A DNA stretch of 64,000 bases, taken from Chrysoperla carnea (Eukaryota; Arthropoda; Insecta; Neuroptera; Chrysopidae). Each line of letters begins with the position of its first letter. The stretch's first letter is position 1. The notes beneath the pieces are model-generated. The model did not search any database, was not told where the DNA came from, and saw only the letters and a program-made list of their open reading frames with translations. Where the stretch lies: contig NC_058339.1 of NCBI RefSeq assembly GCF_905475395.1, positions 49,733,172 through 49,797,171 of the forward strand, in the 5' to 3' direction. Positions 28,735 to 61,718 of the stretch are shown one piece after another. The translations under genes were made by a program, and so were the position numbers.

Positions 28735-31700
28735 ATGGAGGAGTATATTCGATTATCAAATTTACAAACAAATTTTCAAAAAATTTGTAGAACTTGTTTG
28801 ATAGAAAAAGATAATTTACAAGCAATTTTTCGAATTATAGACTTATTAAAAGAATGCACTTCAATACAAGTAAGTACGGTAAAAACTAATAAGAAAACCA
28901 AGTTGAATATTAAATCTCATTTTTGTATATATTTAATTTTTAGATTGACATGGAAGATGATTTACCAAAAGTAATCTGCCTCGAATGTACTAACAAACTG
29001 AATACTGCGTTCGAATTTAGAAAACAATGTGAAGTATCCCAAAAAATTTTGTTACAACTAAGAGAGTTCGGAGAAACACCTGTTAAGCTTGAAAATAACG
29101 CATCAAATTCTCAGTTACAAAATGATAAAGCTGAAAATTTAGAAATAAATGAAGTAGACATTAAATCAGAAGATTCTTTTAATATAAACGAAGATAATTC
29201 TGATACATGTGATGAAACTAACAAATTTAAAGCTAACGATGTTTTTAATTTTGTGAAAATAAAACCATTTAGTAGTGTACAAAATTTTATTGATGTTAGT
29301 GAAAATAAAAATGTTTTGGACGTTTCTAAGAAACAAAACGTTAACTTAGAAAGTGAAAATACTAATATTGTGAAGGACAGCTCATCTTGTGATATTGATG
29401 ATCAACCTCTAGACAAAAGATTAAAGTTAGAAAATAATGATTCAGATAATATAGATAACGATTGTGATAATTCTACGCAAAGCAGTGATGAATCTGTAGT
29501 TTTAAGAAGAAAAAAGTATAATAAAAAATCCAATAAATTGAAAGACAAGAAAGAATTGGAAGTAAAACAAGATGACGATACAGCAAAAAATGGACTATCA
29601 TGTCCAAAATGTAAAAAATCTTTTGAATTAGAAACAGATTTAGAAATTCATATGTTAAAACATCAAAAGTTTGATGAATATATTTGTCCTAAATGTTCAA
29701 AGTCGTTCGAAAATGTAACAAAGTTAAAAAGACATCTGAACACACACATGATTAATAAGCCATATAAATGCAATGTTTGTGATAAAAGTTTTGTTGCAGT
29801 TGGTGATCGAAATCGTCATGTACGAATTCATGATGGTAAAACAACATCCACAGTAAAAAATGGACTACCATGCCCTCAATGTAAAAAATGTTATGAATTA
29901 GAGGTAGATCTACAAATTCATATGTTAAAACATAAAAAATTTGACGAATTTATTTGTCCTATGTGCTCAAAATGTTTCAAAAACAAAAATAATTTAATAC
30001 AACATTTGAATACACACATGACTGACAAGCCGTACAAATGCAGTATCTGTAATAAAGGTTTTGCAAAAGCTTATCATCGAGATATTCATATGCGAACAGC
30101 TCATACAGGTAATTTAATGTTATAGGGTACTACACCCATTTTTGGAAAGAATAACAAAGAATAAGAGTTTTGTAAAAGAACCACGGATCTAGTAATTATA
30201 GTAGGGATGTAGTATAAAGTCCTACTTTAGACGAGGGGGGTGTATCACTCAGGGAGGAAGCAATGTGCCTACTTTTGATTGGCTGCGGCTCTCATTTGCG
30301 GGAAATTCAAATAGAACGATAATATTTCGTGTGTTTTAGATTTTAATATTTCTATATCCATTGTTTTAGATTGCCTCAAGCAATATGCCTGCTTTTGATT
30401 GGCTGCGGCTGTTCGCACCCTCAATTGCGGAAAAATTTAAATGGGTAGCGAGTTCTGCGTGTGTTGTAGATTGGTCCGAGCAAAAAATCTTTCTATTTAA
30501 AGTAAAATCTTTTACCCTAAAGAAAAAAATGAATTTTTTAAAAAAATACAATTTAGAAATTAATTACAAATATAATATTTTTAACTAATTACCCTTGGAT
30601 GAAGGAATATACCTTTAATATTACCATAACCGACTTATTACCTAAAGAATATATCGTAAATAATTCGTAAAATAATAAAAAGAAAACTTCACTTATTTAA
30701 ATTAAGATTAGGTTCACGGGTACATAATTCAATACATAAATAAGTAATAATTTCCCCAAATAAATTTTGACATTAATTTAATATTTTATGTTCAAATTTA
30801 GTATTGAAAATTAATCGACATATTTTCGAGACATTCTTAAGAATTATATTAGTTAACTTATAATAGTCGTAACACTAGGACTGAAGATTTAATATTCACT
30901 AAATTGAATAGAATATTGTTGCGTTTAGTTACTAATATCGTTGATTGTTTTAAAACAAGCATAAATACTTCACGTATTTATTTTTCTTTACAAATTTTAC
31001 TTTTAAATATAAGATTATTTATTTATGTTGTCCACACACGTCAACCGTATGTCAAACATGTTTCCATGCTTACAAACGAATCAAAAACACTTAAAGAAGG
31101 CTTTGAGCATACTTTCGGCATGCACCTAGTTAACAGCCAATAGAAAGTAGGCACAATGATACCCTGCCTCTTCCCCCTGAGTGAGACTCACAACACTCGG
31201 TTATACTCCATCTCTTTTAAAATATTCCTATATCCATGAAAAAAACTATGTACCCGTGATAACTTTTGACCTACTCATTTAGGACTATCAGAAATACCTA
31301 CTTCTATAAAAACTAAAATGATGAGATTCACTTTATTTTTCTTCATTTTCGATTTATTTTGACGTATTTAACAAAATTTCACCGCCAATTCGCGCTGAAT
31401 GTCGTAATCGTTAACAAACAACGAAAAACTAACATAAAACTTTTTTATCTAGGCGAAAAACCATTGGTATGTTCATCATGTGGTGAGCGATTTACAGATT
31501 CCGGTAGATTGTACACACATAAAAAGAAATATCATATTGGAGAAAAAAATTTCGTGTGCTCATTTTGTTCTAAATCGTTCACGTTTGCACCGGAGCTTCG
31601 AAGTCATATGCGTGTGCATACTGGTGAAAAACCATTTTTATGTACAGAATGTGGAGAAAGCTTTAGCCACTTTAAAGATTTAAAACAGCATAGACTAAAA

Positions 31701-32516
31701 CATACAGGAGAACGTCCTTATTCTTGTACTGAATGTAACAAGAGTTTTCTTTCGAATGATTATTTAAAAGTACATATGAGAACGCATACTGGTGAAAAAC
31801 CATATGTATGTAAAATATGTAAAATGGGTTTTGCAAGATCTGATTATCTTGTTATACACACCCGATCACATACTGGTAAGCTTTATATATTAAGTCAATA
31901 ACTAGATAGTTTTTCTTACAAAAGATACAGAAGTTGTTTCTTTAGCAGGATATCTTCAGTTATATTATTGAACTTAAGTTTTTGATATATAACGGTTTCT
32001 CAAATAAAAATCTTGTCTGTGTTGGAAGGTATATAGATCTGGAATACGAAAGGTTAGGAGGGGGCATTCACCCACGTTCCTCTTTCTTGTCTGGGTCTGC
32101 CTTTCCTGTAGCAAAAAGCTTCTAAATTACCGAACTAAAGAGCGGTTAGGACAAGCCCATGTTGACTACTGAGATTTTATAGCGACGCAATTGTACTAGT
32201 AAATAATCACAAAAAAGTATCTATCTCTTTTTTTTAATTTGATGCGGAGCAGCAGTCCGTCAAAGTTGAAAGCTCAAACAAACCAGTAAAATATAAGTAA
32301 CTGAAAATATCCTGTCACAAAAAACAACTCCTATTTCTTTTTCAAAGTAATTTTAGTTTTTTGTCTTTACTATTGGTTTATTACAGATTCAATATAAATT
32401 GATATTAATGTTTCATTTCAGGCGAGAGACCGTTTAGTTGCAATATTTGCGAGAAGACTTTTAAATCAAATAAAAATTTATCACAACATAAACGAACACA
32501 CAATAAAGAAAGATGA
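28735..32516 (+). CDS. ZAD-C2H2 zinc-finger protein, gene A
   Basis: Four exons: 28735-28869, 28944-30108, 31453-31875 and 32422-32516, giving 605 residues. Intron 1 is phase 0; introns 2 and 3 are phase 1 inside the HTG|EK linker. The ZAD has its zinc cysteines at about 18, 21, 57 and 60. ZAD domains are known to mediate homodimerisation. Residues about 90-260 form an acidic, Ser/Asn-rich linker with three psi-K-x-E sites (VKLE, IKSE, LKLE), then a Lys-rich stretch that may be a nuclear signal. Twelve C2H2 fingers follow: six in exon 2 (two triplets), five in exon 3 and one in exon 4. An AATAAA lies at 32610. The product is probably a sequence-specific nuclear DNA-binding protein; its target is unknown. 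Intron 2 carries a TIR element. Confidence 0.88.
30200..31217. mobile_element. ~1 kb non-autonomous TIR element in intron 2 of gene A
   Basis: The left end (from about 30203: AGGGATGTAGTATAA, then ACTCAGGG.GGAAGCAATGTG) is repeated in inverse at the right end (to about 31215: TTATACTCCATCTCT, preceded by the inverse of CACTCAGGGGGA). The imperfect inverted ends span about 85 bases. About 90 bases of the left arm are repeated directly at 30375-30470 (both contain TTTTGATTGGCTGCGGCT). No transposase frame is seen. The superfamily is undetermined. Confidence 0.7.
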
Positions 32517-34012: not shown

Positions 34013-34035
34013 TAACATAATGAATTATTACAAAA

Positions 34036-34079
34036 CTAAAAAGTAGTTAAGTACTTAGCAAATACAGATTTCTTACGAA
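34036..34079 (+). promoter_or_regulatory. Conserved leader motif of gene B
   Basis: CTAAAAAGTAG followed by AAATACAGATTTC just before the start codon. The same arrangement precedes genes C and F and, more weakly, D. It probably lies in the 5' leader or core promoter. Confidence 0.45.
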
Positions 34080-36253
34080 ATGAATATAAATTTAAAATTA
34101 TCAAATTTTCAGAAAATTTGTAGAACTTGTTTAATAGAAAAAGATAATTTGAAAGCAATTTTTAATATTTTAAATTTATTAAAAGAATGTACTTCAATAC
34201 AAGTAAGTACAAAAAATTCCAAAATAAATATGCCAGCCAAAAAGTATATTCAATTTTTAGATTGATATGGAGGATGATTTGCCGAAATTAATTTGCGTGG
34301 AATGTACGAAGAAACTAAATACTGCGTTTGAATTTAGAAAACAATGTGAATTGACTCAAAAAATTTTATTACAATTTAAAGATTTTGGGGCAACACGTCC
34401 TGTTAAATTTGAAAGTAACGGATCAAATCCTCAATCTCATAAAACTGAAAATTTAGAAACAAATGAAATAGATATTAAATCCGAAGATTCTTTTAATATA
34501 AACGAAAATAATTCGGACACATGTGATGAAATTAATAAGTTTAAAATAAACTATGAATCGAACATTTTGAAAACTAAAGCTTTAAGTTTCGGTAGTGTAG
34601 GTGAGACTATTGAAACTACTACGAATGAAAATAAGAATTCTTTAGACGTTTTGAAGAAACAAAATTTCAACTTGGAGAATATAAACACCAACACTGTAAA
34701 AAATAGTTTATCTTGTAATTTAGATGATCAGCCTTTAAACAAAAGATTAAAAATAGAAAACAGTGACTCAATTTCAGAAGATTATGATTGTGATATACCT
34801 ATTCAAAGTAGTGACGAATCTATAGTTTTAAGAAAAAATAAATACAAAAAAAAATCTATCAAACCAAATGATAAAAGAAAAGTCAAAAAAGCTGACCTTA
34901 CTTTAAAAAATGGTATATCATGCCCTCAATGTAAAAAATCTTTTGAATTAGAAGCAGATTTAGAAATTCATATGTTAAAACATAAAAAATTTGATGAGTT
35001 CATTTGTCCTAAATGCTCTAAATCTTTCGAAAATGAACGGAGTTTAAAACAACATTTCAATACACACATGATTGATAAGCCGTATAAATGCAATTTTTGT
35101 GATAAAAGTTTTGCTAAATCAGGGGATCGAAATCGTCATTTACGAATTCATACAGGTAATTTAATTGAAGTGGTCACAAACCTGGAAAACCAGTCAATAG
35201 GGAATATTCATATTTTTGTTTATATTTTTAATTCATTGTTTATACCGTTATAACAAAGTAAAAAATATAAATACTGCTTAAAAATGCTGTATTTAAGTGT
35301 AAAAAAATATTTAAAATACATTATAATTTTGAGATATTTAAACGCAGTTTTTTGCCGCTCTCTGTTGATGACGTATAAGTACGTGATCTGTCAATTTTTT
35401 ATAGTTCAATGTATAATTTACACTTTAAAAAAATGAATTTACAACACAGAATTTACACTCGTTATTATTAAGTTTTCTAATAAAAAGACTTAGAATAGTA
35501 TAATTTAATGAATTAACCCATTTAAAGTAATCATTGTATATTTTTATTTAGGAGAAAAACCTTTCATATGCTCGTCATGTGGTAAACGATTCACGGATTC
35601 TAGTAGATTGTCAGCACATATGAAATATCATCTTGGTGTAAAAAATTTCGTGTGTACAGTTTGTTCTAAATCATTTATGTTTCCGTCAGAACTTCGAAGT
35701 CATATGCGAGTACATACTGGTGAAAAACCATATTTATGTACAGAATGTGGAGAGGGTTTTAGTCACTCAGACGGCTTAAAACTGCATAAATTAAAACATA
35801 CGGGAGAACGTCCATACTCATGCACAGAATGTGATAAAAATTTTCTTTTAAATAAACATTTAAAAATTCATATGCGTTCTCACACAGGTGAAAAGCCATA
35901 TATGTGTAAAATATGCGAAATGGGCTTTGCAAGGTCAGATTCTCTTGTGATACACAATCGGATACATACTGGTAAGATTTATATACTGAAAATATTTATT
36001 AACACATATTAATTTATTTAAACAAATAGTATGAACAAAATTACACCCGGCTTCTATGTAATTTTTTGTGTCTTTCTATTTGTTTAAAGAAAAACAAAAT
36101 GTACGTTTTGTTTGAAAGTAAAAACGGGAATTATCAACTTATAATAACTTTGTTTTAGGGGAGAGGCCTTATTCTTGTAATATTTGTGAAAAGACTTTTA
36201 AATCAAGTAAAGATTTATCACAACATAAACGAACTCATAATAAAAGAAGGTGA
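34080..36253 (+). CDS. ZAD-C2H2 zinc-finger protein, gene B
   Basis: Four exons: 34080-34202, 34261-35155, 35552-35971 and 36159-36253, giving 510 residues, the shortest complete copy. ZAD cysteines are at about 14, 17, 53 and 56. The acidic linker keeps three psi-K-x-E sites (VKFE, IKSE, LKIE) and an SSDES..LRK segment before a Lys-rich stretch. There are nine C2H2 fingers: one triplet in exon 2, five in exon 3 (linked by TGEKP or TGERP except the first, LGVKNF) and one in exon 4. The last codons, AGA AGG TGA, contain a weak donor-like AG|GTGA. Intron 2 contains an R3 element. It is likely a nuclear, ZAD-dimerising DNA-binding protein and is probably closest to the ancestral layout because it has a single triplet. 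Confidence 0.9.
35194..35515 (+). mobile_element. R3 MITE, partial copy in intron 2 of gene B
   Basis: It begins TAGGGAATATTCAT and shares long stretches with the minus-strand copy at 48226-48785 and with 42640-43305 (for example AAACGCAGTTTTTT and AAGTACGTGATCTGTCAATT). Only about half the element is present. It occupies most of the intron. Confidence 0.75.
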
Positions 36254-36896: not shown

Positions 36897-39800
36897 ATGA
36901 ATACAAATTTGCGGCTAGCAAATTTTCAGAAAATTTGCAGAACTTGTTTGATAGCAAAAGACAATTTACAAGAAATTTTTAGTAGTCTAGATTTATTAAA
37001 AGAATGTACTTCAATACAAGTAAGTACAGTAAATGTTAACAAAACAAGATAAAAATATTTTGTCTTAATTTTTATATCTTTTATATCTTTACTTTTTAGA
37101 TTGACATGGAAGATGATTTCCCAAAATTAATCTGCGTTGAATGTACGGGGAAACTAAATACTGCTCATGAATTCAGAAAACAATGTGAACAATCTCAACA
37201 AGTTTTGTTACAACTGAGGACATCGAATGATAGCCCTGTAAAACTTGAAAGTGACATTACGGATTTCCAATTACAAAACGAAAAAACTGAAAATGTAGAA
37301 TTAATTGAAATTGTTATTAAAACCGAGCCCCAACCCGAAGAATCTTACAATACAAACGATGATTTAGCCAGTGTACACGACTTAATTAAAAATTTTACCA
37401 GTGAAAATAAAAGTGTGGGTGTTTGCAAAAAACAAAAAATTATTTTAGAAAGTGTAAATATTAATCTTACCAAAGATGGTTTACCTTTTAATTCTGATGA
37501 TCAACCTGTAAAAAAAATATTAAAGTTTGAAAATGATTATTTAATTCATGAAGATCATGATTATGACACATGTATACGAAGCATTGACAAATCTGTAGAT
37601 GAAAATAAATGTAATGAAAAACCTAGTACTCTAAAGACCCAGAGAAAATTGGATGTAAAAGAAGATAGTGTTACAATAAAAAATGGATTATCGTGTCCAA
37701 AATGTGAAAAATCGTTTGAATTAAACTCCGATTTAGAAATTCATATGTTGAAACATCAAGAGTTTGATGAATATATTTGTCCCAAATGTTCAAAGTGTTT
37801 CGAAACCGTAACAAAGTTAAAAAGACATCTTAGCACACATTTGGTTAACAAGCCACATAAATGCAATGTTTGCAATAAAAGTTTTAATGATGTTCGTCGC
37901 AGAAATAGTCATTTACGAATTCATAAACGTAATGAAGATAACAATTGTCAAACTCTTGATAAAAATATTAATGAACATTTAAAAAACAATGGAAGTTATT
38001 CATGTCTCCAGTGTAGTAAATGTTTTGAATTAGAAACAGATTTAGAAATTCATATGTTAATTCATCAAAAGTTTGATGAATTTAACTGTCATATGTGCTC
38101 AAAGTCTTTCGAAAATGAAATTGGTTTAAAACATCATTTCATCAGACACATGGTTTACAAACCATTTAAGTGTAACTTTTGTGATAAAAGCTATGCTAAT
38201 TCTGATGATCGAAATCGACATTTACGAATTCATACAGGTAAATTGATATATTTTAATAACACAGTGTCGGATTTAAGCCTTCTGGCAGGCAGACCACTGA
38301 GATGCTTACGCGTTTTTAAGCCATTTTTCCCTTTATAATTTTGTGGTGTTTGATGGAGTACCTTTTTTTGTTATGGGCTCTTAGTCTACGATAGAAATTG
38401 ATGATTTCTAAGCAAAATCTCAAAAAATTGTATTTTTGAATTTCTTATTTTGACCAGACTTTTTTCCTAAATTTGCCACTGAATTAAACAAGCAGTTAAA
38501 CCAACAATATCTATAGTCTCCAGTACAGAGGGGGTTAAAGTTTCGTGAATTTTATGAGGGGGTATGGTTTCGTGATTATAACACTCTTACGAAACTACGC
38601 AAGTGGCTTCATTTCACTATATTGATAAATTTTCATACCCTCGTTTTTCCGACATGTGTAAAAGTGGAGTTTACGCCAAACGGCTCAACATTTTTGCTGG
38701 CCACTATTATTCTCTCTTATTATATACATTTATCATATTTTTTCAATAGGTCGTTTAATTGACATTTTTTCCATTTTCCACATTGAAAACGCTCCAATTT
38801 CCAAAGATTCCGTAAATGTAAACTTTGTAGGTTACACTGAAATGAAGCCACTCACGAAGTTTCGTAAGATTTTTATTCACGAAACCATGCCCATGTAAAA
38901 CCATGCCTTCTGTACTGTAGACTACTATACATTTTTTTTTTCTGAATAGGTGAAAAACCTCATGTATGCTCTACATGTGGGGAACGATTCATGGAATCGA
39001 GTAAATTATCACGTCATATGAAATATCATCTTGGTATAAAAAATTTCGTGTGTACAGTTTGTTCTAAATCGTTTACTTTTTCACAAGAGCTTAAACGTCA
39101 TATGCTTATGCATACTGGTGAAAAACCTTACTTGTGTACAGAATGTGGGAAAAGTTTTCGTCAGCTGCAAAGCTATAAAGAACATCAAATTACACATTCG
39201 GGTGAACGTCCGTATTCATGTACAGAATGTGAGAAGACTTTCACTTTGAGTAAATATTTAAAATGGCATATGCGTTCACATACAGGTGAAAAACCATTTG
39301 TTTGTAAAATATGTGAGATGGCTTTTACAACAGCACGTGCTCTTGTTAGACACAATCGATCTCATACTGGTAAGGTTCATTTATTGAAAATGTGCAATAA
39401 AACGTAATAATTAATATTAATTTTAATTTAGGAGAAAGGCCGTATTCTTGTGATATTTGTAAAAAAACTTTTAAATCAAGTCAGGAAGTAACTCAACATA
39501 AACGGACCCATAATAAAATTCCCCAATTTTTCCTTAAGCAAGGTAAGATTTTTATATTTAATATGGATATTTTAAATGTAAAGCCGCGGCCACATAGCAC
39601 AATGCACAACTCACCACATATTTGTGTACTGAATAATTCTGGATAATTCTGAATTAAACATTCCAAAAACGTTTAAAAATTACAAGGTTCAAGAGTTACA
39701 AAGACTCCTTCAGAGTTTCTAAAACTTTTTCAGAGTTTTTAAGACTTATTTTTTCTTCAAAAATTTTTTCCACTAGGGTACGGATTTACAGATTTTTCTA

Positions 39801-40372
39801 TAATTTCCCATTAATTGTTTTTGTCTGAATCGAAATGTGATCTTAATAGTTTCTACATTATATTAACTTTGTTTTAGGGGATAGTCCATATTGGTGTGAT
39901 ATTTGTGGAAAGACTTTTAAGGCAAATAAATATTTAACACGCCATAAACGAGAAGCACATGTTGGTAAGCTTCATTTATTGAAAATGTTTATATTTAAAG
40001 GATCTTTTGCATGTGGAAATTCACCATCGTGTGGGAGTGATATATTTCTATTGTATTTTTGAGTGAATTTCCGATATTTTGATAATTACTTATATTTTCG
40101 TTGAGTAATTTACATATAAAAAAATCCTCAATATACTTTTTATAAACTAATGTAAATACGGTTGACTTAAAAACAAAATTAAAATTACATTTTGTCAAAA
40201 TTTTATTCAATTCCCTTGAGTAGATCTCTCATTTAAGGTAATTAGTCCATTAATAATTTATATTAATTTTGTTTTAGAGGGAAAACCATATTCCTGTGAT
40301 TTATGTGAAAAGGCTTTTAAATATAGTAAACATTTACGAGCACATAAACGAACACATGACGAAACAAGGTAA
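36897..40372 (+). CDS. ZAD-C2H2 zinc-finger protein, gene C
   Basis: Six exons: 36897-37019, 37100-38237, 38950-39369, 39432-39542, 39878-39964 and 40278-40372, giving 657 residues. ZAD cysteines are at about 14, 17, 53 and 56. The linker has VKLE, IKTE and LKFE sites; the SSDES segment is degenerate. There are fourteen C2H2 fingers: six in exon 2, five in exon 3, and one each in exons 4, 5 and 6. Exons 4-6 are copies of the single terminal-finger exon of the paralogs, with every boundary phase 1. Exon 4 ends with a short non-finger tail before its donor. The final AGG TAA overlaps a donor-like AG|GTAAAA, so another exon is conceivable. It is probably a nuclear DNA-binding protein with a lengthened finger array. 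Confidence 0.87.
38513..38933. mobile_element. Foldback MITE in intron 2 of gene C
   Basis: The left end TAGTCTCCAGTACAGA is matched by the inverse end (CTGTACTGTAGACTA). The arms continue inward (CGAAACTACGCAAGTGGCTT against the inverse of GAAGCCACTCACGAAGTTTCG) for about 110 bases. Its ends resemble those of the R2 family at 40925-41400. It has no coding capacity. Confidence 0.75.
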
Positions 40373-46900: not shown

Positions 46901-47722
46901 AGTTTTTTGTTTTTTTCAAAACTCCTACGATTTTCTCGGCTGTGAGTCGGCTTCTATATTTAAGTGTATTTTGCAATAAATTTTGTATGTTTTTTAAATT
47001 TAATTTTTTAGTCATGTGTTAAATGTCGGTCGCATGCTGAATTAGCTGTTTTCTATAAAGCCTGAATAAATAAAAATTTGGTGGTTGGGTTTCGAATACA
47101 CGTGCAATATATACTGCATTTGATATTCATGTGACATTCTAGAAACTGGTTTATTGCGCCAGCAACCCACATACGACTTTACATTTAATCGAACCGACAT
47201 AATAGACAAGACAGCATAGTCATTTTAAAGAGAAACGTGACAATTGACCGCGTTTTAGAAATTTCTAACAATTGAGAAAAACGAATTTTTCGATATGTGT
47301 TATTCATTTAGTTAACAAGCAAATTTCTTTCGTATTTCAACACTGAAATACTTTCTAGCTCCCTCCTAGGTAGAAGCAAGAAAATGAGGAATTAGAGAGA
47401 AATTCAAACTTTAATTTAAAACAATTTAATTTCATGAATAATCATGAATTTATCTATAAATTTTTTATGACAGTCAAAAAGTGGTTTAATAATTCTGGAA
47501 AAATTGAAAAATTTTTATTCTTCGACATGATAAACTGCTATAATTCTGACTTGGTTCGATTATAATGGAACGCTCTACGTTAATAATCTTCTTTAAATCG
47601 TAATAATTTATATTAACTTTATTTTAGGGGAGAGACCGTTTCCTTGTGATATTTGCGAAAAGACTTTCAAAACAAGTAAAAATTTATCACAACATAAACG
47701 AACACATAATAAAATTACATAA
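43912..47722 (+). CDS. ZAD-C2H2 zinc-finger protein, gene D
   Basis: Four exons: 43912-44031, 44099-45302, 46330-46749 and 47628-47722, giving 612 residues. ZAD cysteines are at about 13, 16, 52 and 55. The linker has VKLE, IKSE and LKIE sites and SDDES..LRKNK before a Lys-rich stretch. There are twelve C2H2 fingers. Exon 2 holds two triplets separated by a second NSDES..LGK segment, so the repeated unit includes linker sequence. Exon 3 has five fingers and exon 4 one. Exon ends follow the common phase-1 HTG|EKP rule. An AATAAA lies at 47823. Intron 2 (1,027 bases) contains two inverted repeats. The expected role is nuclear DNA binding with ZAD-mediated dimerisation. Confidence 0.9.
45727..45876. 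repeat. Inverted repeat in intron 2 of gene D
   Basis: GCGAGAGAGATTTCCAGTGA with GTTCCCTTGTGTCC is matched inversely by GGACGCAGGGGAACTCACTG..CTTTCTCGC. The arms are about 40 bases around a 70-base loop. It is probably a small foldback element. Confidence 0.65.
45903..46150. mobile_element. Foldback MITE with ~100 bp arms in intron 2 of gene D
   Basis: The left arm starts CCCTTGCGGAAAAAC and the right arm ends with the inverse CGTTTTTCCACAAGGG. The arms match over about 100 bases (AACTGTTAATAAGTCTG, CAGTTCTTAAAGTA, ACTCTGAATAACTTTT). A decayed relative may lie at about 39655-39780 in gene C. Confidence 0.75.
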
Positions 47723-49704: not shown

Positions 49705-52700
49705 ATGGATACAAAGTTACGGTTACCAGATTTAAAAACTAACTTACAGAAAATTTGTAGAACTTGTTTGATAGGAAAAGACAATTTACAAACAATTTTT
49801 CGTATTTTAGATTTATTAAGAGAATGTACTTCAATACAAGTAAGTATAGAAAACAAACAATTAGCTGAGTTAATTGTTGAAATACCATGCATAAACAGTG
49901 TTGATTACTCTATCACATTACAGATACATACATGTCACACATACATAACTAATATAACTGATATTCCCATATAATACCTACTAAAAAATTTACGCCCTCA
50001 CGGGTAAATAGTGATGTTTACGAAAAAATGTATCAAACAAAAGTTGTTTTGTTTTTTATAAGGAACATTTTTTACATTTAAACTTTTGTTCTATCTCTAA
50101 TGGTTTACAAGATCCAATTGACCTATTTTGCTCATTTACGAACTTGGCCTCACTTTTTACGTCCTGAGTACGCTATAAAAATTTCATCTTGATATCTCTT
50201 TTCGTTTTTGAGTTATCGTGTTGGCAGACAGACGGACAGACAACCGGAAATGGACCAATTAGGTGATTCTATAAACAACTATACCAAAATTTTTTTCGTA
50301 GCGTCAATATTTTTAAGCGTTACCAACTTGGGACTAAACTTAGTATACCTTGCACATTACATATATGCATGGTATAAAAAGTTTTTATCAAAAAAGTATA
50401 TTTATTATTCTTGAATTTTAGATTAATATGGATGATAATTTACCAAAATTAATTTGTCTCGATTGTACTAACAAACTTAATACTGCATTTGAATTCAGAC
50501 AACAATGTGAAGTGTCTGAAAAAATTTTGTTACAACTGAGGGAATTCGGAGAAACACCTGAAATTACTGTTAAACTAGAAAGTAACGAATCAAATTCTCT
50601 AATACAAATAGAAAATTTAGAAACAAATGAAATATATATCAAATCGGAGAACTCTTACAATACAAATGAAAATAATTTCGATGAGTATAATAATAATGAA
50701 TTTAACGATGTTCATTCAACCAGTGTACATTCGGTTTTCGAAACTTCTCTTAGTGAAACTAAAAATATGTCGGACGTATCAAAGACACAAAACATTCGAT
50801 TAGAAAATGAAAATGTTAACCTCTCGAAGAATTATTCACCTTTAAATATAATACTAAAGGCCAAAAACGAAGAATCTCATGAAGATAATGATAGTGATAT
50901 TTCTTGGCAAAGTAGTGATGAATCTGTAACTTTAAGAAAAAGTAAACGTTATACAAAATCTAGTAAACTAAAAAACGAGGCAGAGTTGGAGATAACAAAA
51001 AATGGATTATCATGTTCAAAATGTAAAAAATCTTTTGAATTAGAAACAGATCTAGAGATTCATATATTGAAACATAAAACGTTTAATGACTTTATTTGTC
51101 CTAAGTGTTCAAAATCTTTTGAAAACTCAATAAAGTTAAAAAGACATCTTAGCACACATATGACTAACAAGCCCTATAAATGCAATTTTTGTGATAAAAC
51201 TTTTATTGCTGCTTGCGACAGAAATCGTCATTCCCTAGTTCATATTGGTAATAAAGATAACGATATTTTCGTACAAAATAGTGATGAAGCTATAGCTTTA
51301 AGAAAAACTGAATATAATAGAATTATAATAAAAAATGGACTTTCATGTCGTCAATGTAAAAAATTTTTTGAATTGGAATCTGATTTAGAAATTCATATGT
51401 TTAAACACCAAAAATTTGATGAATGTATATGTCCCAAATGTTGCAAGTCTTTCGAAAATGAAACAAAGTTAAAAAGACATCTTGACATACATCTGATTAA
51501 GAAACCATATAAATGCAACGTTTGTGAGAGAAGTTTTATTACAGTTCATGACAGAAAGCGTCATTTACTAAGTCATAAGGAAAAAACGTATAGCGATAAT
51601 ATTCCTATTCAAAATAGTGATGAATCTATGAATTTACGAACAAATGAATTTGAAAACATTACAATAGAAAATGGATTTTTATGTTCTCAATGCAAAAAGT
51701 TTTTTGAATTAGAAGAAGATTTAAAAATTCATATATTAAAACATCAAAAATTTGATGATTTGATTTGTCCTAAGTGTTCAAAGTCTTTCGAAAACGAGCA
51801 AGGTTTAAAACATCATTTTGATACACATCTGATTCACAAACCGTATAAATGCAATTTTTGTGATAAAAGTTTTGTTAATTCTGATGATCGAAATCGTCAT
51901 TCTCGTACTCATACAGGTAATTTAATTATACCTTAAAAACTTTTATTTGAAAAATTATAAAAAATTAAAGCTTTTTTGGAAAGTTTTTAAACCAGTCCGC
52001 TTCTTTTATGACCAATATTTAGAAATGTCGTAGACACATTGTAATTTCCAACCACAGTGTAATTCGACTTCGCATTATCTACCAAAATACATTCAAACTT
52101 TGACATCTAAAGCTAGCCAAGTCTAACAAAGGAATCGAACAAAGATAATTTTCTTCATAAAGTAAACTTGGGCACAACTCAAAGGAAATTACAATCTAGT
52201 TGAAATTAAAAATACCTCATTCTATTATCATCTTAAGTTTAGAATTTATATAACGTTTGTTATATAAAGACTCTTTCGTTCAACTTTTGAACCATGCTTT
52301 TCAATGATTCCCATGACATTTGGATCGACGAAGTACAACTTTGGCGAAAACGTATTGCTGGACAGGACGTCAAAAATTTACTCGAAACCTTCGATGTTTT
52401 CAATGAAGATGCGTTTACAAATGTCTACTAAATACTTCGCGTTCGGGCAGTTTTGTCTGTGACAAAGCTGCAAATGAACGCTTTTTTTTCGACTTTCCGT
52501 CGGTTTAAAACATATCTTAGATCGACAATGTCTGAAGGTCGCCCCTCCCCACTGGATAATTTCTGTGCACGGGTCTGCATTCATATCTCACACTTGCGCA
52601 ATCTTAAGCTTTTTGCTATGCCCGCCACACAAATATATTTAAACAAGCAGTTAAAAATTAATAATATACATCTTTTTAAATTTAGGTGAAAAACCTTATG

Positions 52701-53705
52701 TATGTTCGACTTGTGGAAAACGATTTACAGATGGCCGTAGATTGTCAGCACATATGAAATATCATCTTGGAGTTAGAAGTTTTGTGTGTACAATTTGTTC
52801 TAAATCATTTATATTTAAACGAGAGCTTCGAATTCATATGCGTATACATACTGGTGAAAAGCCTTATTTATGTATGGAATGTGGAGAAAGTTTTAGTCAA
52901 TCCTACAGCTTAACTAAACATAAACGAAAACATACGGGAGAACGTCCATATTCATGCACAGAATGTGATAAAAGTTTTACATTAAATAAATATTTAAAAA
53001 CGCATATGCTGTCTCACACTGGTGAAAAACCTTATATGTGTAAAATTTGTGATGCCAGCTATACTTCGTCTGGTTCTCTTATTATACACAATCGATCACA
53101 TACTGGTAAGATTTATATAGTTTGTTTCATAAGTCTGTAATCACCCTTTAATGAGATATATTTAAGTAAGCTAAAAATACAGAAACATGTTTCAAATAAA
53201 AGTTGTTGCGCTTAAGGTGGTTAATTCAAGTTCGTAACCAATTACAGGTCACTTTAAATTCAAAAATTGTTTCTTATAAAATAACAAAAATTTTTTGTAT
53301 GAAACACTGGAGGGGTGTTATAAGTTGACCGCTATAACACCACACATAAATATATATGTGTATGTGTCCGTCTGTCTCTCTGTGGCATCGTAGCTCCTAA
53401 ACAGAAGAATCGATTTTTTTTAAAGATAGTTTAATGGAGAGTTTTCTTTTCTATGTATTGATTTCTCTTTAAGTTACGAACTCGAGCTGCCGTTTAGATG
53501 GGATGAACAAACTTAATCTGCAAATTATTTCTCATAGAAGACTGGCTAAGGGTTTCTGAGACATTGTAAATATTCACAAAATATAATAATTTTTATAAAC
53601 TTTGTTTCAGGGGAGAGACCTTTTTCTTGTAATGTTTGTGAAAAGACTTTTAAATCAAGAAAACATTTGCTACAACATAAACGAACGCATAATAAAATAT
53701 TGTGA
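49705..53705 (+). CDS. ZAD-C2H2 zinc-finger protein, gene E
   Basis: Four exons: 49705-49839, 50422-51916, 52686-53105 and 53611-53705, giving 714 residues, the longest copy. ZAD cysteines are at about 18, 21, 57 and 60. The linker keeps VKLE and IKSE; the third site has become LKAK. There are fifteen C2H2 fingers. Exon 2 holds three triplets, each preceded by an (N/S)SDE(S/A)..LR segment and a few residues ending in NG. Exon 3 has five fingers and exon 4 one. Intron 1 is 582 bases, against 58-80 in the other five complete genes, because it is filled by an R1 copy; both splice sites remain consensus. Intron 2 contains a hAT remnant. It is likely a nuclear DNA-binding protein. Confidence 0.9.
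49851..50380 (+). repeat. R1 copy filling intron 1 of gene E
   Basis: It begins about 11 bases after the exon 1 donor (AAACAAACAATTAGCTGAG) and ends GCATGGTATAAAAA about 40 bases before the exon 2 acceptor. It is in the same orientation as the gene. The 5'-most 12 bases of R1 are not separable from the donor region. Confidence 0.8.
52255..52640 (+). pseudogene. hAT transposase C-terminal fragment in intron 2 of gene E
   Basis: Translation around 52470-52530 gives [19 protein letters not shown], a clear match to the hAT C-terminal pattern [14 protein letters not shown]. It is related to the fragment at 11745-12110 at the DNA level (shared GACGTCAAAAATT and surrounding text). There are several frameshifts and stops. 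Confidence 0.65.
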
Positions 53706-54666: not shown

Positions 54667-54698
54667 CTAAAAAGTGGCAAATACAGATTTCCAACAAA
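54667..54698 (+). promoter_or_regulatory. Conserved leader motif of gene F
   Basis: CTAAAAAGTGG, then AAATACAGATTTC and CAACAAA, ends at the start codon, at the same distance as in gene C. Confidence 0.45.
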
Positions 54699-57600
54699 AT
54701 GAATAAAATTTTAGAATTATCAAGTCTTCCGAAGATTTGTCGAACCTGTTTAATGGATAAACACCACTTAGAAGAAATTTTTGGGTTTTTAGATTTATTA
54801 AAAGAATGTACTTCAATACGAGTAAGTTACACTAAAGATGAGAATGTAGTAAAAAACAAAAGTTTAAAAAGTATGGATAATTTTTAGATAAATATAAAGG
54901 ATAATTTACCAAAATTAATTTGCATCGAATGCATTAACAAACTTAACAATGCTTTTGAATTTAGAAAACAATGTGAGAAGTCTGAAAATATTTTATTACA
55001 TAGTAGAGGAATTGTAGAAACAAAACCTAATATTAAAGTCGATAAAAATCTATCATCCGTGGAAATCGAAATAATATCTGAAGAAACTGTAAAAAATGAA
55101 AATATTGCGGAAACTGATCAAAACATAAGTGGCGTGTTTAGTTTTGTGGAAGCTAAACCTATAAGTAATGTAGAAAAGATTAATAAAACTACTATTAGTG
55201 AAAATGAAATAAATTTAGACATTTCCAAGAAACAAAATAACTTGAAAAATGTAAATACTGATTCTGATAATCAGCATAGACAAATTATCAAAAACAAAGA
55301 GAGTTCAGATCATTTATATTATACACAATTGAATAACAAATCGTACAGATGTAATGTTTGTAATAAAAGTTTTGATATTCTGGAGGAAATAAATCGACAT
55401 TTACAAACTCATTCTGGTAATTTCAGGTATTTAAACAAGTAGTTAAAAAACTTGTAATTTATATAATATTATTTTACATCTAGGTGAAAAACCTTACATA
55501 TGTTCATCATGTGATGCACAATTCACAGAATCCAGCGCATTGTCAAAACATATAAAAGATGATCTTTGTGAAAAAAATTTCGTGTGTAAACTTTGTTCCA
55601 AATCGTTTGTGTTTGCACAACAACTTCGGCGGCATATGCGTATACATAAAGGTGATAATCCGACTACTGATGAAAAATCTTGTACTTGTAGCGAATGTGA
55701 AGAAATTTTTAATGATACAAGAAGCTTAAGAAAGCATATGTTAAAACATAAAGGAGAACAACGCTTCCACACATGTATAGCATGCGATAAGAGTTTCCAA
55801 ACAAGTTCACATTTAAAAGAACATATACGTTCACACACTGGTGAAAAACCATTTGTATGTCAAATTTGTGGTGCAAGTTTTGCTAGATCAGGTTCTCTTG
55901 TTATACACAGTCGAGCACATACTGGTAAGATTCATGTATTGATAATAGTGTACAGAAAGGGCTAAAAGTCTCGTTTCGATTTAAAAGGAGAATAACTTTT
56001 TTTAAGAATATATTTGTTGAAATTTTATTTTATTTCTAACATTAAACTTGACCAATCGTAATAAAAATCCTTACGCTATTTATGAGTTTTGCATTTTTTA
56101 TCGTAAGAATAAAAGACGTTTAGATTCAATTTGGATTGCAAAGAAAATAATCCTTAAATTGTTATTTTTCGATAAAACGTGAACGAGAATAAACCGAGTA
56201 AGATATAAATATTGTTTTGAGAGATTCAAACTATTGATGCAAATGGCGTTAGGATCAGAGTCCCGCCTTATTTTTCGAGCTAACTATAGACAAAATGGTT
56301 TTTGGGAAGCTCAAAATGGATAATTCAGTCTAATTTTCCGATGAATCCAAAAAAATCTTTTTGATAGGATATACTATTGGCTTATAAAACGTACTTAAAA
56401 ATTTGGGAAAAAAGTAAAAATAGTTTTATAATAAAAATATGTATGACTTATATTGTTGTGTACCAAAATGTCTTAGGCTGCCACCACAAGGTCTTAATAT
56501 TTGAAAAGGAAAGACTTTCAGAATCCTTGGGGATGAATATGACGTCCTACAAAATTAACACTGATATACTGATATTTCGTATGATATTTATTTTATTCAG
56601 AGACTTTAAAATATGTTATATTCAATTAATCACTGGTGTTTTTTATTACAAATTAAGTTGCACTTGAATCTCTAAGTTGTAATAATTACTATATGATTCT
56701 AATCAATTTCCAATGTCTTTAAATACAAAATTTTTAGGTCAAAATATTAAATATTGTGACGTAAAAATTAAAATATTAAATATTAATTTTGCTGACAAGT
56801 AAATATAATCAGAGCCACGCGCTATTATAAATTAGACCTCAATTCAATTATTTACATAAGTAACTTAATAATAATAATAACCAATATAAATTAGCTGACT
56901 AGCTAAATGAATTAATATTTCAAATTAGGTTTTTTAAAATATTATTTATTACTTAATAATAATATGAATGATTTAGTGTGTTAGAACCACGTTTTTAAGG
57001 ATAACGCCGTCCAGGGCCTAACAATATACTAGAGTATATGATAATTTGTATGACTTTTATACTAGAGCGAAACGTTTGTTGTCATAATAAAAATATACTA
57101 TTATGTAATTTTTATTAACTCTGTTTAGGTGAAAAACCATATTCTTGCGATATTTGTGAAAATGCTTTTGCATCAAATCAGCAATTAAAAGCACATAAAC
57201 AATCACATATTTGTGAAAAACCATATTTATGTTCAGACTGTGGAGCCAGTTTTAAATATACCCATAGTCTCCAAGTACATATGCGAAATCATACTGGAGA
57301 ACGTCCATTTTCATGTACAGAATGTAATAAGAGTTTTACAAAAAAAGCATATTTAACGGAACATACACGTATTCATACAGGTGAAAAGCCATTTGTGTGT
57401 CAAATATGTTTAACAAGTTTTCGTAAATCTGACGCTCTTGTTTCACACAGCCGAATACACACGGGTAAGATTCATTTATTGAAAATGTATATAAAATGTA
57501 ATAATTTATGTTTATTTTGTTTTAGGAGAAAAACCGTATTCTTGTAATGTTTGTGAAAAGACTTTTGTGTCCAATCAAGCATTATCAAAACATAACACAC

Positions 57601-58870
57601 GAACGCATAATAATAAAATAAAAAATGAAAATAATCAATCAATTACTGGTAAAATTCGTTAACAAATGTACAGCTAAACGTATAATTAACACTAACTTTG
57701 TTTTAGAGGAAAAATCGTATTCGTGTGATATTTGTGAAAAGACTTTTAAAACAAGTTATATCTTATCACGTCATAAACGAGAAACACACATTGGTAAGAT
57801 TCATTTATTGAGAATGAACACTAACTGTAATTAGATCGCGGAGCACCCTTTTTGTTAAAAGATCAATATATATACTTGAAGCTTGGTGAATCGATTTCTT
57901 TTGGCGAATCTGCCAAACTTTCTTTCTACGACTTTTTTCGAAAATATTGCGTTTCAAATAAACATGATAACGTCATATTTAAGCTGTCGGTCTGAAAAAA
58001 CGCAGGAGGGAATTTTTCGAACATCATGACAACTTGCAGTAGCAATATTTTTGTCGGACAAAATATTTTATTGTTTAATAATTATTAATGTTATCAAGTG
58101 ATCATAATGTCCGACAAATTCCCTGTTGCGTTTTTTTAGACCGATAGCTTATCATGTTTATTTGAAAACGCAGCACTTTCGAAAAAGGTGTAGCGAGAAA
58201 GTTTAGTAGATTCCCCAAAAGAAAGCCACTGACGAAGTTTCAAGTATGCGAACTAAATAGTTTTTATACTCTGCATATTATACTTTGTGTAGGAATTTAG
58301 GATGGTATTCATAAATCACAATTAAAATCTCTAAAAAAATTAAATTATTTGTATTTATACAAAGCAGTAATATCTAATCAACAAAACGGGAAGTAATCAT
58401 TTGAAATTGATTTGGTGCATGTAATTCTACTTGTTTCACATCTAAAGGTACTGCCAGCTAATTTTTTATTAGTCGTACTACTCTTGGGCCAAAGGTCCAT
58501 TCTTTAGACAAAATTTATCTGTAGCTAAATTGGTGATTGTTTCACAAACTTGAAAAAAATATATAAATAGCGTTTGAGGGACATTCACGAAAATAGTTAC
58601 CAAATTAGCGATTCTCATATATCTCTCAGGAGAATATATTAGACATTAACACGAATTAAAAATTTTATTGATAAGGAAGCGTATGCAGGGTATTTATCAA
58701 CTAACTTATCTTTACTTACTGATATATTGGTATATTTTATTAATTAATTTAATATTTTGATTAACTTTGTTTTAGAAGGAAGACCGTATTCTTGTGATGT
58801 TTGCCAAAAAACTTTTAAATATAGTAAAAACTTTGCACAACATAAACGAACAAATCATATAATAGACTAA
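54699..58870 (+). CDS. ZAD-C2H2 zinc-finger protein, gene F (divergent)
   Basis: Seven exons: 54699-54821, 54888-55416, 55484-55924, 57129-57464, 57526-57648, 57707-57793 and 58776-58870, giving 577 residues. ZAD cysteines are at about 14, 17, 53 and 56. Exon 2 is short, with only one finger (the third of the usual triplet), and the IKSE site has become IISE. There are about thirteen C2H2 motifs in all: one, five, four, one, one and one in exons 2-7. The first finger of exon 3 has lost its last zinc ligand (HIKDD where paralogs have HMKYH). Its third finger has a long linker. Exon 4, with four fingers, has no counterpart in the other genes. Phases stay consistent throughout, so it is probably functional but diverging. 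AATAAA lies at 58873, very close to the stop, so a later site may be used. Confidence 0.82.
57885..58250. mobile_element. R2 foldback element, copy 3, in the last intron of gene F
   Basis: The left arm (CTTTTGGCGAATCTGCCAAA, AAATAAACATGATAACG, GTCGGTCTGAAAAAACGCA) is matched inversely by the right arm (TGCGTTTTTTTAGACCGATA, TATCATGTTTATTTGAAAAC, GATTCCCCAAAAGAAAGCC). The arms are about 130 bases around a loop of about 90. Confidence 0.75.
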
Positions 58871-60061
58871 GTAATAAAAAGATAATAATAATTGTCAGAA
58901 CTGTTAGTATTGCCATAAAGTTTATGTTAAATTTTTTACTTGGAGAGAATTAAAAGAAACAATTAAACAGAAGGATATTTTATTTTTGAAACCAAATATA
59001 CCGTTATATTGATTAAAGCTACCACAATGCTCAAAGGTACCAATTCTCAAACTTATTCTACAATAGAAGTAGGAAGACGTTTGTCAACAATATTGAATAC
59101 CAGACAGGTCATCTGTACAGGTACACCGTAGCATATGTGTCAGCCACTGCAGGCAAACCTGTGCAGATGACCAGAGAAGAATCGAAATTCTATCCTTATT
59201 ATCTCTCGTATATGTAACTCTATTGGATTTTTTTTATCTGTTTCATTTTTGTTATCTTGAACGTTTTTTATTTTATTTTTTGATAACTCTGTACTGTTTT
59301 AACTACGGGTTGATTAGGTTGAGATTGTCGACTATAGAAGAGTTGTTTGGGTTCTGAAATTTTTAGCCCTTGCGTTCAAAAATGGGACACTATTGCAGAA
59401 AATGGAAATATTATCGTAAACGATATATAAAAGTACAAGTTAAAGTTACATGCTTATCTTTTAATATATAAAAGATATGCGATCGCGCCACAGTCAAGTG
59501 ATTGTGCTATGACTAGAAGTTAGTGCCACAAGCAGAGGACACGTCGTTTTTGTATTCCTTCTCGATCCATTTACCGTAGCGTGTGTGCTCTAGCCTGCAC
59601 AGGTATGCGTTACATGTATGCCCAGCCTAAGGAAAAATTAAGAAGAATGAACGTTTAATGTTTTGTGTATTTTAACTGCCTTAGATTTTTATCCAAATCA
59701 CAAACTTCATAAGATTTCATCTAATATTTTTTAGTCTGGAAGCTTATTCTACCACCGAAACGAACAGATTTTTTTGAAAAAAAATTTCTTCACATACATA
59801 TTTTACAAATTTCAATAAAATAATCGCACGCAGTCTTTTTTTATTTTCTTTCACTTTGAATATATAGGAATTCTATTTGAATTTTTTTATTAGGGATTTG
59901 GTCCTTGAAGCCAATCTGAGGGCGGTTGTTTTTGGAAGCTACAAGCATGCTTTTAATTCTAATATTTATTATCGTAATGTATTTGTAAAAGTTACAAAAA
60001 TAAATTTTATTTATCAATTTTGCATCACATTTTTTTTTTCCAATTCGTAAATGTAATATAT
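58871..60061. other. Convergent spacer between genes F and G
   Basis: No exon is recognised. A hairpin lies at 59105-59182 (CAGGTCATCTGTACAGGT against ACCTGTGCAGATGACC). The minus-strand AATAAA at 60006-60011 fits the 3' end of gene G. Confidence 0.5.
59105..59182. repeat. Hairpin in the F-G spacer
   Basis: Eighteen-base arms (CAGGTCATCTGTACAGGT and the near-perfect inverse) flank about 40 bases. It may be a foldback remnant. Confidence 0.55.
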
Positions 60062-61718
60062 TTATGAAGATTGTGAAGGTGTATTAGTTACAGGTCGGTC
60101 TACCATTCCTTGAACTTGGGATTGATCAGAGCTAGAATTAAAAATATTAATTAAAAAAATGGATTCAGTTTTGAACTCTAGAAAATTAGACTTACATATT
60201 TTTTATAACTGCATCGTTGCCTATTTGTGAAATTTTTGTATTTGTATGTGTTCGTTTATGCCTTGTTAAGCTGCTCGATACCGGATAACTTTTAAAACAA
60301 ATATCACATGTATATGGCATTTCCCCTAGTGCAAATAAATTTATCAGTGATCAACTATATGCTTGTGGTATAAAAACACTTACCAGTGTGAGAGCGGTTA
60401 TGTCTCACAAGAGATTCAGGCCTAGCAAAACCCATTTCACATATTTTACACACATGTGGCTTTTCACCAGTATGAGTTCTCATATGAAATTTTAATTGAT
60501 GATTTAAACGAAATTTTCGATTACATTCTGTACATGAATAGGGCCGTTCACCCGTGTGTTTACGCATATGTTTTGTGACACAATATGCTTGAGCAAAACT
60601 TTCACCACATACAGTACATAAAAATGGTTTTTCACCCGTATGAATACGCAAATGATTTCTAAGATCATTTGGAAATTTAAAAAATTTTGGACAAAATGTA
60701 CATGCGAAATTTTTTACATCGCTATGTGATTTCATATGTGCTGATAAACCGCTCGAATCTGAAAATCTTTTGCCACATGTTGAACAAACATAAGGTTTTT
60801 CTCCTGAAACAAATTGGTAAGTAATAAAAGATATTTTTTAGCCACAAACATTCTTACGTTCAATTTTTGCCACATATTAATTTTGTTATTAAAGATTGGA
60901 AAATTGGACATACGCCAGTTTACTTTTGGCAACAGATTTATGTTTTTTTGGTATGCTAATGATTAATTACATATTATTTTACCTGTATGTGTCCTTAAAT
61001 GTGAAAGACGACCGCCAGCATTTGCAAAACTTTTGGAACAATACAAACATTTATATGGTTTGTTTATCAAATGAGTTGTAACATGTTTTCGTAAATATGC
61101 TAAATTACTAAAAGTTTTCGAACATTTGGTACAAATAATTTCATCAGTTTTTGGATGCGAAATCATATGAATTTCTAAATCTGATTCTAATTCAAAACAT
61201 TGTGAACACTTTGGACAAGGTAGGCCATCTTTGAGTTTCGATTTTCTTTTTCCTTTGGTTTGTGAATTTACTTGTTTTTTAAACGTTTTTGTACGTTTCT
61301 TTTGTTTTTCAAAAACCGATTTACATTTGTTTTTGTCAATTTTATCTTTTTGCCTTAATGACAATACACCTCTTTTCTGCTCCTTTACAGATTCCTTATC
61401 ACCATCGTAAGTAATTAATTTTGATTCTTCATCATCATATTGGGATGAAATGTCGTTTTCTTCATCTTTTTTTATGAAACGTGTATTATGATTATTAGAA
61501 TCATGAAATTCTGACTCATTTATGGTGTAAGAACTTTCTGATTTAATATCATAATTTGTTTCTTCATTATTATCATTAGATGATAAATTACTTTTGTATA
61601 AATATTCTCTTAATGTTTCATCAGATATTTTACATTGTTTCCTAAATTCAAAAGAATTATTTAATCTATCAACACATTCCAAGCATATTAATTCCGGTAA
61701 ACCATCCCCTGTGTCCAC
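60062..61718 (-). CDS. ZAD-C2H2 zinc-finger protein, gene G (first exon not found)
   Basis: Minus-strand exons: 61718-60983, 60803-60384, 60325-60196 and 60131-60062, giving 451 residues from the first visible exon. That exon starts at a good acceptor with [15 protein letters not shown], homologous to exon 2 of the paralogs, so it carries only the second cysteine pair of the ZAD. The exon with the first CRTC pair is not seen up to 64000. There are nine C2H2 fingers (three, five and one). One IKSE site is present, and the linker is Lys-rich before the fingers. After the last finger, AAT AT|GTAAGT can splice to a 70-base exon encoding [16 protein letters not shown] and a stop. Without that splice the protein ends at the TAA one codon later. 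AATAAA (minus) lies at 60011-60006. It is the only family member on this strand. Confidence 0.8.

Follow-up and report, generated by a model that had tools for sequence, protein, structure and literature searches.

A lineage-specific ZAD-C2H2 zinc-finger gene cluster in Chrysoperla carnea, probably shaped by tandem duplication, block inversion, three-finger block duplication and exon exchange

The seven ZAD-C2H2 zinc-finger genes found in a 64,000-nucleotide stretch of the Chrysoperla carnea genome (contig NC_058339.1, forward-strand positions 49,733,172 to 49,797,171; hereafter the window) form the left edge of a cluster of 24 genes (g1-g24) covering ~116 kb, and at least three further family members lie outside the cluster, one of them an intronless retrocopy; 27 genes were considered in all. 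We regard it as quite probable that these genes constitute a lineage-specific family of dimeric DNA-binding regulators, which grew by tandem duplication and was reshaped by the inversion of one block of genes, by duplication of a three-finger block and by conversion of exon 3. The ancestor, multiplied by tandem duplication, would have had four exons and nine fingers (3+5+1).

An earlier note on this DNA had placed seven genes here and read them as local duplicates; gene models with open spliced frames and a shared exon layout confirm the genes, and local duplication of ZAD-C2H2 paralogs is supported. The start of the span then given, 28735, is indeed the first methionine of g1 exon 1, but its end, 61718, is merely the start of g7 exon 2, and g7 exon 1 lies beyond the window end at extended coordinates 64369-64470. 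The models, in window positions, are as follows.

28735-28869, 28944-30108 (6 fingers), 31453-31875 (5), 32422-32516 (1), forward strand: g1, 12 fingers, open spliced frame with GT/AG borders
34080-34202, 34261-35155 (3 fingers), 35552-35971 (5), 36159-36253 (1), forward strand: g2, 9 fingers
36897-37019, 37100-38237 (6 fingers), 38950-39369 (5), 39432-39646 (1), forward strand: g3, 12 fingers
39878-39964 (with donor), 40278-40372 (with stop), forward strand: two more single-finger exons 3' of g3, open frames with AG acceptors
43912-44031, 44099-45302 (6 fingers), 46330-46749 (5), 47628-47722 (1), forward strand: g4, 12 fingers
49705-49839, 50422-51916 (9 fingers), 52686-53105 (5), 53611-53705 (1), forward strand: g5, 15 fingers
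54699-54821, 54888-55416 (1 finger), 55484-55924 (4 regular), 57526-57662 (1), forward strand: g6, divergent, 6 regular fingers
57129-57464, forward strand: extra four-finger exon between g6 exons 3 and 4, also in phase
57707-57793, 58776-58870, forward strand: two more single-finger exons 3' of g6, colinear with the pair behind g3
60983-61718 (3 fingers), 60384-60803 (5), 60192-60325 (1), reverse strand: g7 exons 2-4, 9 fingers

The usual gene plan comprises four exons, encoding one half of the ZAD, the other half with the linker and three fingers, five fingers, and one finger; the first and second ZAD halves occupy separate exons in 24/24 cluster genes. Spliced frames are open in 23 of the 24, g15 being frame-broken, and g14 and g6 are reduced. 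A C-terminal C2H2 array of 6 to 15 regular fingers is present in every cluster model (24/24, g15 being counted up to the point where the frame breaks). The range of 9 to 15 fingers proposed earlier holds for the regular copies, but g6 is reduced to six regular fingers and extra finger exons lie downstream. The extra single-finger exons of g3 and g6 share 80-83% DNA identity, with dN/dS values of 0.78 (28 codons) and 0.43 (23 codons), and those behind g3 are possibly an alternative tail or relics; the four-finger exon within g6 sits on a long branch of unsure placement.

The family assignment rests on both ends of the protein. Even with the half domain alone, the Pfam zf-AD profile passed its cut-off in 4/4 exon-2 frames scanned, and the joined domain of all four proteins tried (g1, g5, g9 and the retrocopy; g1 and g5 being the window genes among them) matched zf-AD (PF07776) at 46-56 bits (cut-off 28), over profile positions 1-74 of 75. 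Since half and joined domains both match, chance resemblance is excluded, and in each of the four joined proteins the N-terminal ZAD, with its two CxxC pairs, spans the full length of the profile. Among solved structures, the g1 ZAD matched 7pok (E 0.0004) and, weakly, 6fp5 (E 0.022) and 7po9 (E 0.025), all of which we take to be Drosophila ZADs. Pfam zf-C2H2 matched in 8/8 exon frames scanned, weakly in g6 exon 2, and no KRAB domain was among the Pfam matches of these eight frames. The three-finger block of g2 was predicted to fold as three fingers with helices at 11-21, 39-49 and 67-76 (mean pLDDT 90.1 in the best of five models, 75-83 in the other four), and a profile built from 14 blocks retrieved ordinary finger proteins among the best 60 of 177 PDB matches. 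Dimerization of ZADs and DNA binding are known from work in Drosophila; by analogy, these proteins most likely dimerize through the ZAD, contact DNA with their finger arrays and regulate chromatin or promoters.

Finger number is mostly constant and changes in units of three. Nine fingers occur in 16/27 genes, and within the cluster a 3n+5+1 arrangement, giving 9, 12 or 15 fingers, holds for 20 of 24 genes, the exceptions being g6, g14, g15 and g24; finger counts across the 24 gave no sign of frequent gain or loss of single fingers among paralogs. The 9/12/15 series reflects duplication of a 336-bp three-finger block, directly visible as a repeat in g5.

50997..51902, forward strand: 336-bp (112-codon) three-finger block repeat in g5 (Tandem Repeats Finder, 2.7 copies, 76% matches)

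A search that scored 150 of 4413 candidates found 30 such blocks in the cluster and at least four outside, all with 72.8 bits or more, the next match having 59.4. With g6 excluded and g24 counted by its first three fingers, both trees need three changes to account for the number of blocks, and pairing of blocks within a gene was rejected in all four genes covered by the test, g1, g4, g5 and g22 (AU p 0.003 or less). Block duplication mostly predates the gene copies; a weakness of the account is that first blocks grouped at only 79/80 when the retrocopy was omitted. One exon-2 block would have doubled in the ancestor of g1, g3, g4, g5, g22 and g23, giving 12 fingers, and a second duplication in g5 would have given 15. 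The 12-finger genes were not recovered as a single clade, yet such a clade was not rejected either (AU 0.40, 0.49); because they do not form one clade, a block may have disappeared from g2 and g19-g21. The fast turnover of array length suggested by the earlier note is not supported, in view of the prevalence of nine fingers, the three changes in block number and the rejected within-gene pairing.

Trees built by exon disagree. g12 and g17 pair together in exon 3 and not in the N-terminus; they share an 817-bp tract at 96.3% identity, against 62.2% outside it, and the opposing trees gave AU values of 0.042 (exon 3, barely significant) and 0.009. We conclude from these sequences that the five-finger exon was exchanged between g12 and g17, presumably by gene conversion, and the same exon has probably been exchanged between g8 and g9; exon 3 would thus have moved between paralogs. 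Introns 2 and 3 are in phase 1 and positioned inside TGEKP-type linkers, which makes exon 3 a cassette of five fingers that is neutral to the reading frame. A bolder reading, possible but on balance doubtful, makes the whole cluster a modular recombination system in which exon-3 cassettes and single-finger tails are swapped: ZAD/three-finger halves would be re-paired with five-finger cassettes (g12/g17; g8/g9, where g25 would be the third partner), and the spare single-finger exons at g3 and g6 would supply alternative DNA-reading tails by splicing. If this were true, specificity would shift more by swaps of whole modules than by point changes in contact residues.

The preferred account, of a tandem array with one inverted block, draws on gene order. 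The description of six tandem genes and one inverted is accurate inside the window, but it is an edge effect: g8-g23 (16 genes) beyond the window end are all reversed and g24 is forward, so g7 starts a 17-gene reversed block. Nor are the seven copies each other's closest relatives, as had been assumed, for in the exon-3 tree they do not form a clade; g7 groups with g8-g10 and g24 (99/99), and g1 with g22 and g23 from the far cluster end (99/96). Reversing g7-g23 (17 genes, ~80 kb) puts all genes in one orientation, and this inversion ranks first of 276 single inversions in both the exon-3 and N-terminus trees, raising the rank correlation of distance with kinship in exon 3 from 0.05 to 0.45 and in the N-terminus from -0.005 to 0.42; among 200 random orders, taking the best of 276 for each, the maxima were 0.40 and 0.33. 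The left breakpoint would lie in the window.

58871..60191, no strand: interval holding the left breakpoint of the inferred g7-g23 inversion (orientation change and test of 276 single inversions)

The right breakpoint interval, at extended coordinates 140597-141268, is outside the window. A single-orientation array would thus later have had g7-g23 inverted, probably as one event. Reversed duplicates are known in gene clusters, which lends some plausibility to the alternative that the block never inverted as a unit and that reversed single copies arose and multiplied independently; a comparison of the two breakpoint intervals also found no convincing repeats there (best match 27 bp, 85%). Even so, the kinship of g22 and g23 with g1, and of g7-g10 with g24, would then be accidental, and it would be coincidence that, in two separate gene parts, the inversion that equalizes orientation also fits kinship order better than any other of the 276, so we consider independent origins clearly improbable.

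How the copies have been selected bears on two further readings. The copies are under purifying selection: structural (zinc and core) finger positions show a dN/dS of 0.02, with 7/426 residues changed, and values are 0.29 for the ZAD and 0.51 for the linker (six pairs). The retrocopy (L032) encodes 12 fingers and is precisely intron-free at 3/3 junctions modelled against g1, and therefore at least one family member must in the past have undergone germ-line transcription and splicing. The frame of the retrocopy is open, with a pairwise dN/dS of 0.26 against g1, and inspection of its flanks by eye showed neither a poly(A) tail nor a target-site duplication. Judged on their sequences, most cluster genes look like working genes, and some copies may be dying (g15, and the reduced g14 and g6). 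These three copies are what could be cited for a largely decayed or silent relic of past duplication, which is highly improbable given the 23 open frames, the constraint on zinc and core positions, ZAD and linker, and the open retrocopy. An arms race like that of vertebrate KRAB zinc-finger genes, with array length and contact residues tracking transposons or other changing targets, has more to recommend it and is still unlikely. Contact residues differ between copies (median 22/36 over 210 pairs of 21 genes), their diversity over all copies exceeds that of other non-structural positions (1.71 vs 1.36 bits, nine slots pooled, one-sided P 0.009; higher in 7/9 finger slots, with E3 and E4 alone below 0.05, uncorrected), dN is higher at contact positions in 10/16 overlapping pairs, and gene duplication, block duplication and exon exchange do happen. 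(Exon-3 finger slots leave out g6, g14 and g15, the last-finger slot g14 and g15, and the block slots g6; g6, g14 and g15 were kept in the trees.) However, in eight recent pairs, chosen by the analyst and including g12/g17, which pair in exon 3 and not in the N-terminus, and g11/g18 and g2/g16 without sister support, 81/284 contact cells changed against 215/784 other non-structural ones (29% vs 27%, P = 0.76), with dN/dS of 0.35 and 0.34; six cherries gave 59/212 against 127/530 (P = 0.30). Contact-position dN/dS was below 1 in 16/16 overlapping pairs. In the eight pairs, the counting method detected no positive selection for helix residues -1, 3 and 6; the helix neighbours -2, 1 and 5 match contact positions roughly in diversity, and nine fingers prevail. 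PMC2604467 reports that positive selection was not found in the D. melanogaster and A. gambiae expansions, and PMC10547256 gives for flies no correlation between ZNF and TE numbers. The rapid specificity turnover proposed earlier is therefore not borne out in recent pairs, and retains support only in the greater all-copy diversity of contact positions, chiefly in the third and fourth exon-3 fingers (E3 and E4).

The closest known systems are the Drosophila ZAD-ZNF clusters (Odj-Nnk; Cucoid-clade), which likewise combine ZADs with C2H2 arrays in tandem, share common intron positions, show gain and loss, are suspected of gene conversion and include an intronless probable retrocopy, CG9215, but hold 4-5 genes (Odj-Nnk five) against 24 here (PMC7655104, PMC9810180). 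Duplication of a three-finger block distinguishes the C. carnea cluster, and its introns inside finger linkers may do so too. Mammalian KRAB clusters, according to PMC2604467, are also tandem, with gene conversion in some sets and finger gain and loss, finger numbers differing in 23/24 human/mouse paralog sets. The present cluster is unlike them in the lack of KRAB in the eight exon frames, in its mostly constant finger number and in that no positive selection at contact positions was found. Fish FZNF genes have an N-terminal domain that differs from ZAD. They too are a large, physically clustered, lineage-specific expansion and, according to PMC10547256, repress young transposons, a role of which the C. 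carnea cluster gave no sign. The cluster thus offers an insect contrast to KRAB genes: a large expansion with mostly constant array length, changes by three-finger blocks, no detectable positive selection at contact residues in recent pairs, and exon histories that differ. Gene trees of such clusters need to be constructed exon by exon, and a related genome could show whether module exchange or residue change moves DNA specificity in what is a very large insect transcription-factor class.

As a separate observation, a search for TTAGG-type repeats returned 474 matches, whereas the reversed pattern returned 7, and the matches listed were all on C1.

A six-frame scan of the window, which lies at C3:49733172-49797171, and of the adjoining 120 kb to its right recovered the seven ZAD-C2H2 genes (six tandem, one inverted) that the earlier note had treated as a local cluster; these are present, but they are not the whole cluster, as the scan added 17 further genes. 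The resulting 24 genes (g1 to g24, left to right) span 28735 to 144847 in extended coordinates, which carry the window numbering on to the right. Regular finger exons were not found by the scan left of g1 within the window, beyond one isolated odd match, nor in a further 18 kb leftward, nor right of g24 as far as extended 184000. An open frame that by eye resembles a sugar transporter lies left of the window (L029:3415-4533, minus strand) and is a possible left neighbour of the cluster.

The genes share a four-exon plan. Exon 1 carries the first ZAD half and terminates near ...CTSIQ before a phase 0 GTA donor, read out for 23 genes, the g13 donor being placed separately; exon 2 carries the second ZAD half, a long linker and one to three copies of a three-finger block; exon 3 encodes five fingers, and exon 4 a single finger followed by the stop. 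Introns 2 and 3 are in phase 1 and split the glycine codon of TGEKP-type linkers after its first base, intron 3 being modelled in 22 of the 24 genes (exceptions g14 and g15). All models except one are open through to a single terminal stop (23/24); g15 loses its frame around finger five of exon 3. Nine regular fingers are found in 14 cluster genes (g2, g7-g13 and g16-g21), 12 in g1, g3, g4, g22, g23 and g24 (the last arranged 4+5+3) and 15 in g5, with reduced counts in g6 (six), g14 (seven) and g15 (cut at seven). Spare single-finger exons, colinear and open, with splice-site-like borders, may be alternative tails or relics:
window 39878-40372, spare single-finger exons behind g3
window 57707-58870, spare single-finger exons behind g6
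Intron 1 of g7 contains an inverted repeat (window 62188-62714 and extended 63680-64205; arms of 527 bp, 99.4% identity) composed of a repeat family that recurs, in many diverged copies, across the 184-kb stretch.

We surveyed the genome assembly (559 Mb, 337 contigs) with the three-finger block of g2. Among the 150 scored of 4413 candidates were 34 blocks, 30 in the cluster and four outside, each of at least 72.8 bits (next match 59.4). The four outside blocks belong to two four-exon genes and to a double block on C2:
L031, C3:39043500-39053499 (C3:39.05 Mb), 10.7 Mb from the cluster, g25 and g26, nine fingers each as counted by open frames
L032:3039-4670, C2, minus strand, intronless retrocopy with a single open frame
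With these, nine fingers occur in 16 of 27 family genes. The L032 frame has 544 codons (534 from Met) and encodes a complete ZAD and 12 fingers; aligned with g1 (pairwise dN/dS 0.26), it is missing introns exactly at all three modelled junctions. By the tree placement of its blocks, given below, L032 derives as a retrocopy from a 12-finger member; it gives the gene models independent support for one lineage and shows that this lineage was transcribed in the germ line. A genome-wide zf-AD (PF07776) search placed at least 99 of 150 scored matches (484 candidates) in at least 15 clusters, each with three matches or more, on contigs C1, C2, C3 and C5. The g1-g24 cluster is the richest, with at least 15 matches; since 24 genes lie there, the zf-AD counts are lower bounds, and they indicate a very large ZAD expansion in Chrysoperla carnea. 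Interstitial (TTAGG)n runs also occur in this genome, on C1 among the matches listed.

Extra fingers arrive as a three-finger block with part of the linker; in g5 this block forms a 336-bp tandem repeat. The first blocks of g1, g3, g4, g5, g22 and g23 cluster together (79/80, or 96/98 once the retrocopy is included); the retrocopy blocks group with these and also with block two of g1 (95/92), in a tree whose bootstrap is not fully settled. Last blocks are placed among those of the nine-finger genes, which have one each, and within-gene block pairing is rejected in g1, g4, g5 and g22, the genes tested (AU p 0.0002, 0.001, 0.003 and under 1e-60). No single clade of 12-finger genes is recovered, nor is one rejected (AU 0.40, 0.49), and either tree requires three changes of block number, g6 left out. 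The rejected pairing and the three changes together indicate that array length changed only a few times, mostly before the genes duplicated. A different zinc-finger gene lies between g16 and g17 (extended 105645-107018, minus strand; L013:1645-3018), with a single open frame, 12 fingers and SGEKPFSC linkers; its finger units 2 and 6, and 3 and 7, are identical at the DNA level, and its internal duplication is therefore recent.

Different exons of one gene can have different histories. Between g12 and g17, identity is 97% in exon 3, 98% in intron 3 and 96% in exon 4 and 88% in the block, but falls to 78% for exon 1 and 69% for the linker; a tract of 817 bp stands at 96.3% against 62.2% outside. 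Grouping g17 with g13 and g15 is rejected by exon 3 (AU 0.042), and grouping g12 with g17 by the N-terminus (AU 0.009). Exon 3 also joins g8 to g9 (100/99) and rejects g8 with g10 (AU 0.0019), but the N-terminus rejects the g8-g9 pair (AU 0.023). The distant g25 is the partner of g8 by N-terminus (98/98) and by block (100/98), yet exon 3 does not join the two, which points to g8 and g9 having exchanged this exon, with the foreign copy in g8. The likely cause of such discordance is gene conversion or unequal exchange. Intron 1 of g12 and g14 (extended 87437-87502 and 94740-94805) shows 91% identity, with 81% in exon 1 and 75% in the linker, and is perhaps another short exchange tract.

Gene order and orientation point to a probable inversion of g7-g23. 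Genes g1-g6 and g24 are forward and g7-g23 reverse, and the exon-3 tree unites g7-g10 with g24 (99/99) and g1 with g22 and g23 (99/96). In the present order, the rank correlation of gene distance with tree distance stands at 0.05 for exon 3 and -0.005 for the N-terminus; inverting g7-g23 raises it to 0.45 and 0.42, first of 276 single inversions in both, and is the only one of the 276 that equalises all orientations. With the best of the 276 inversions applied to each, no random order exceeded 0.40 (exon 3) or 0.33 (N-terminus) in 200 trials each. The left and right breakpoint intervals share no better match than one of 27 bp at 85%. The fetched DNA contains no N, but the orientation change may still be an assembly misjoin.

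Selection was counted in eight gene pairs, with helix positions -1, 2, 3 and 6 as contacts. At zinc and core positions, 7 of 426 residues had changed (dN/dS 0.02), and contact positions (81/284, dN/dS 0.35) did not differ from other positions (215/784, 0.34; P = 0.76); in six pairs, dN/dS was 0.29 for the ZAD and 0.51 for the linker. Contact dN exceeded that of other positions in 10 of 16 overlapping pairs, with contact dN/dS below 1 in all 16. Across all copies, diversity at contact positions (1.71 bits) exceeds that at the other non-structural positions (1.36 bits; one-sided P 0.009), by finger in exon-3 fingers 3 (P 0.038) and 4 (P 0.018), both uncorrected; helix positions -2, 1 and 5, which are not contacts, reach about the same diversity. 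A fair reading is that specificity would have diverged earlier, above all in fingers 3 and 4 of exon 3, with constraint prevailing overall and no sign of fast turnover at present. PMC2604467 describes positive selection as absent from fly and mosquito expansions. Of the three fingers in the block, the first is nearly frozen, with L at -1 in 21/23 and D at 3 in 23/23; its helix is acidic, and it may be used for contacts that do not read bases.

Drosophila ZADs dimerise, and the proteins that carry them act on chromatin and promoters; by analogy, we infer that the cluster proteins would form ZAD dimers acting there too. Clusters of ZAD genes have already been described, as have gains and losses of fingers, suspected conversion and a retrocopy of a ZAD gene (PMC7655104, PMC9810180); we found no paper on introns in the linkers of ZAD genes, or on exchange in such genes, in the literature searched, which excluded most subscription journals. 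The present cluster is another member of this known kind, and its history is unusually clear.
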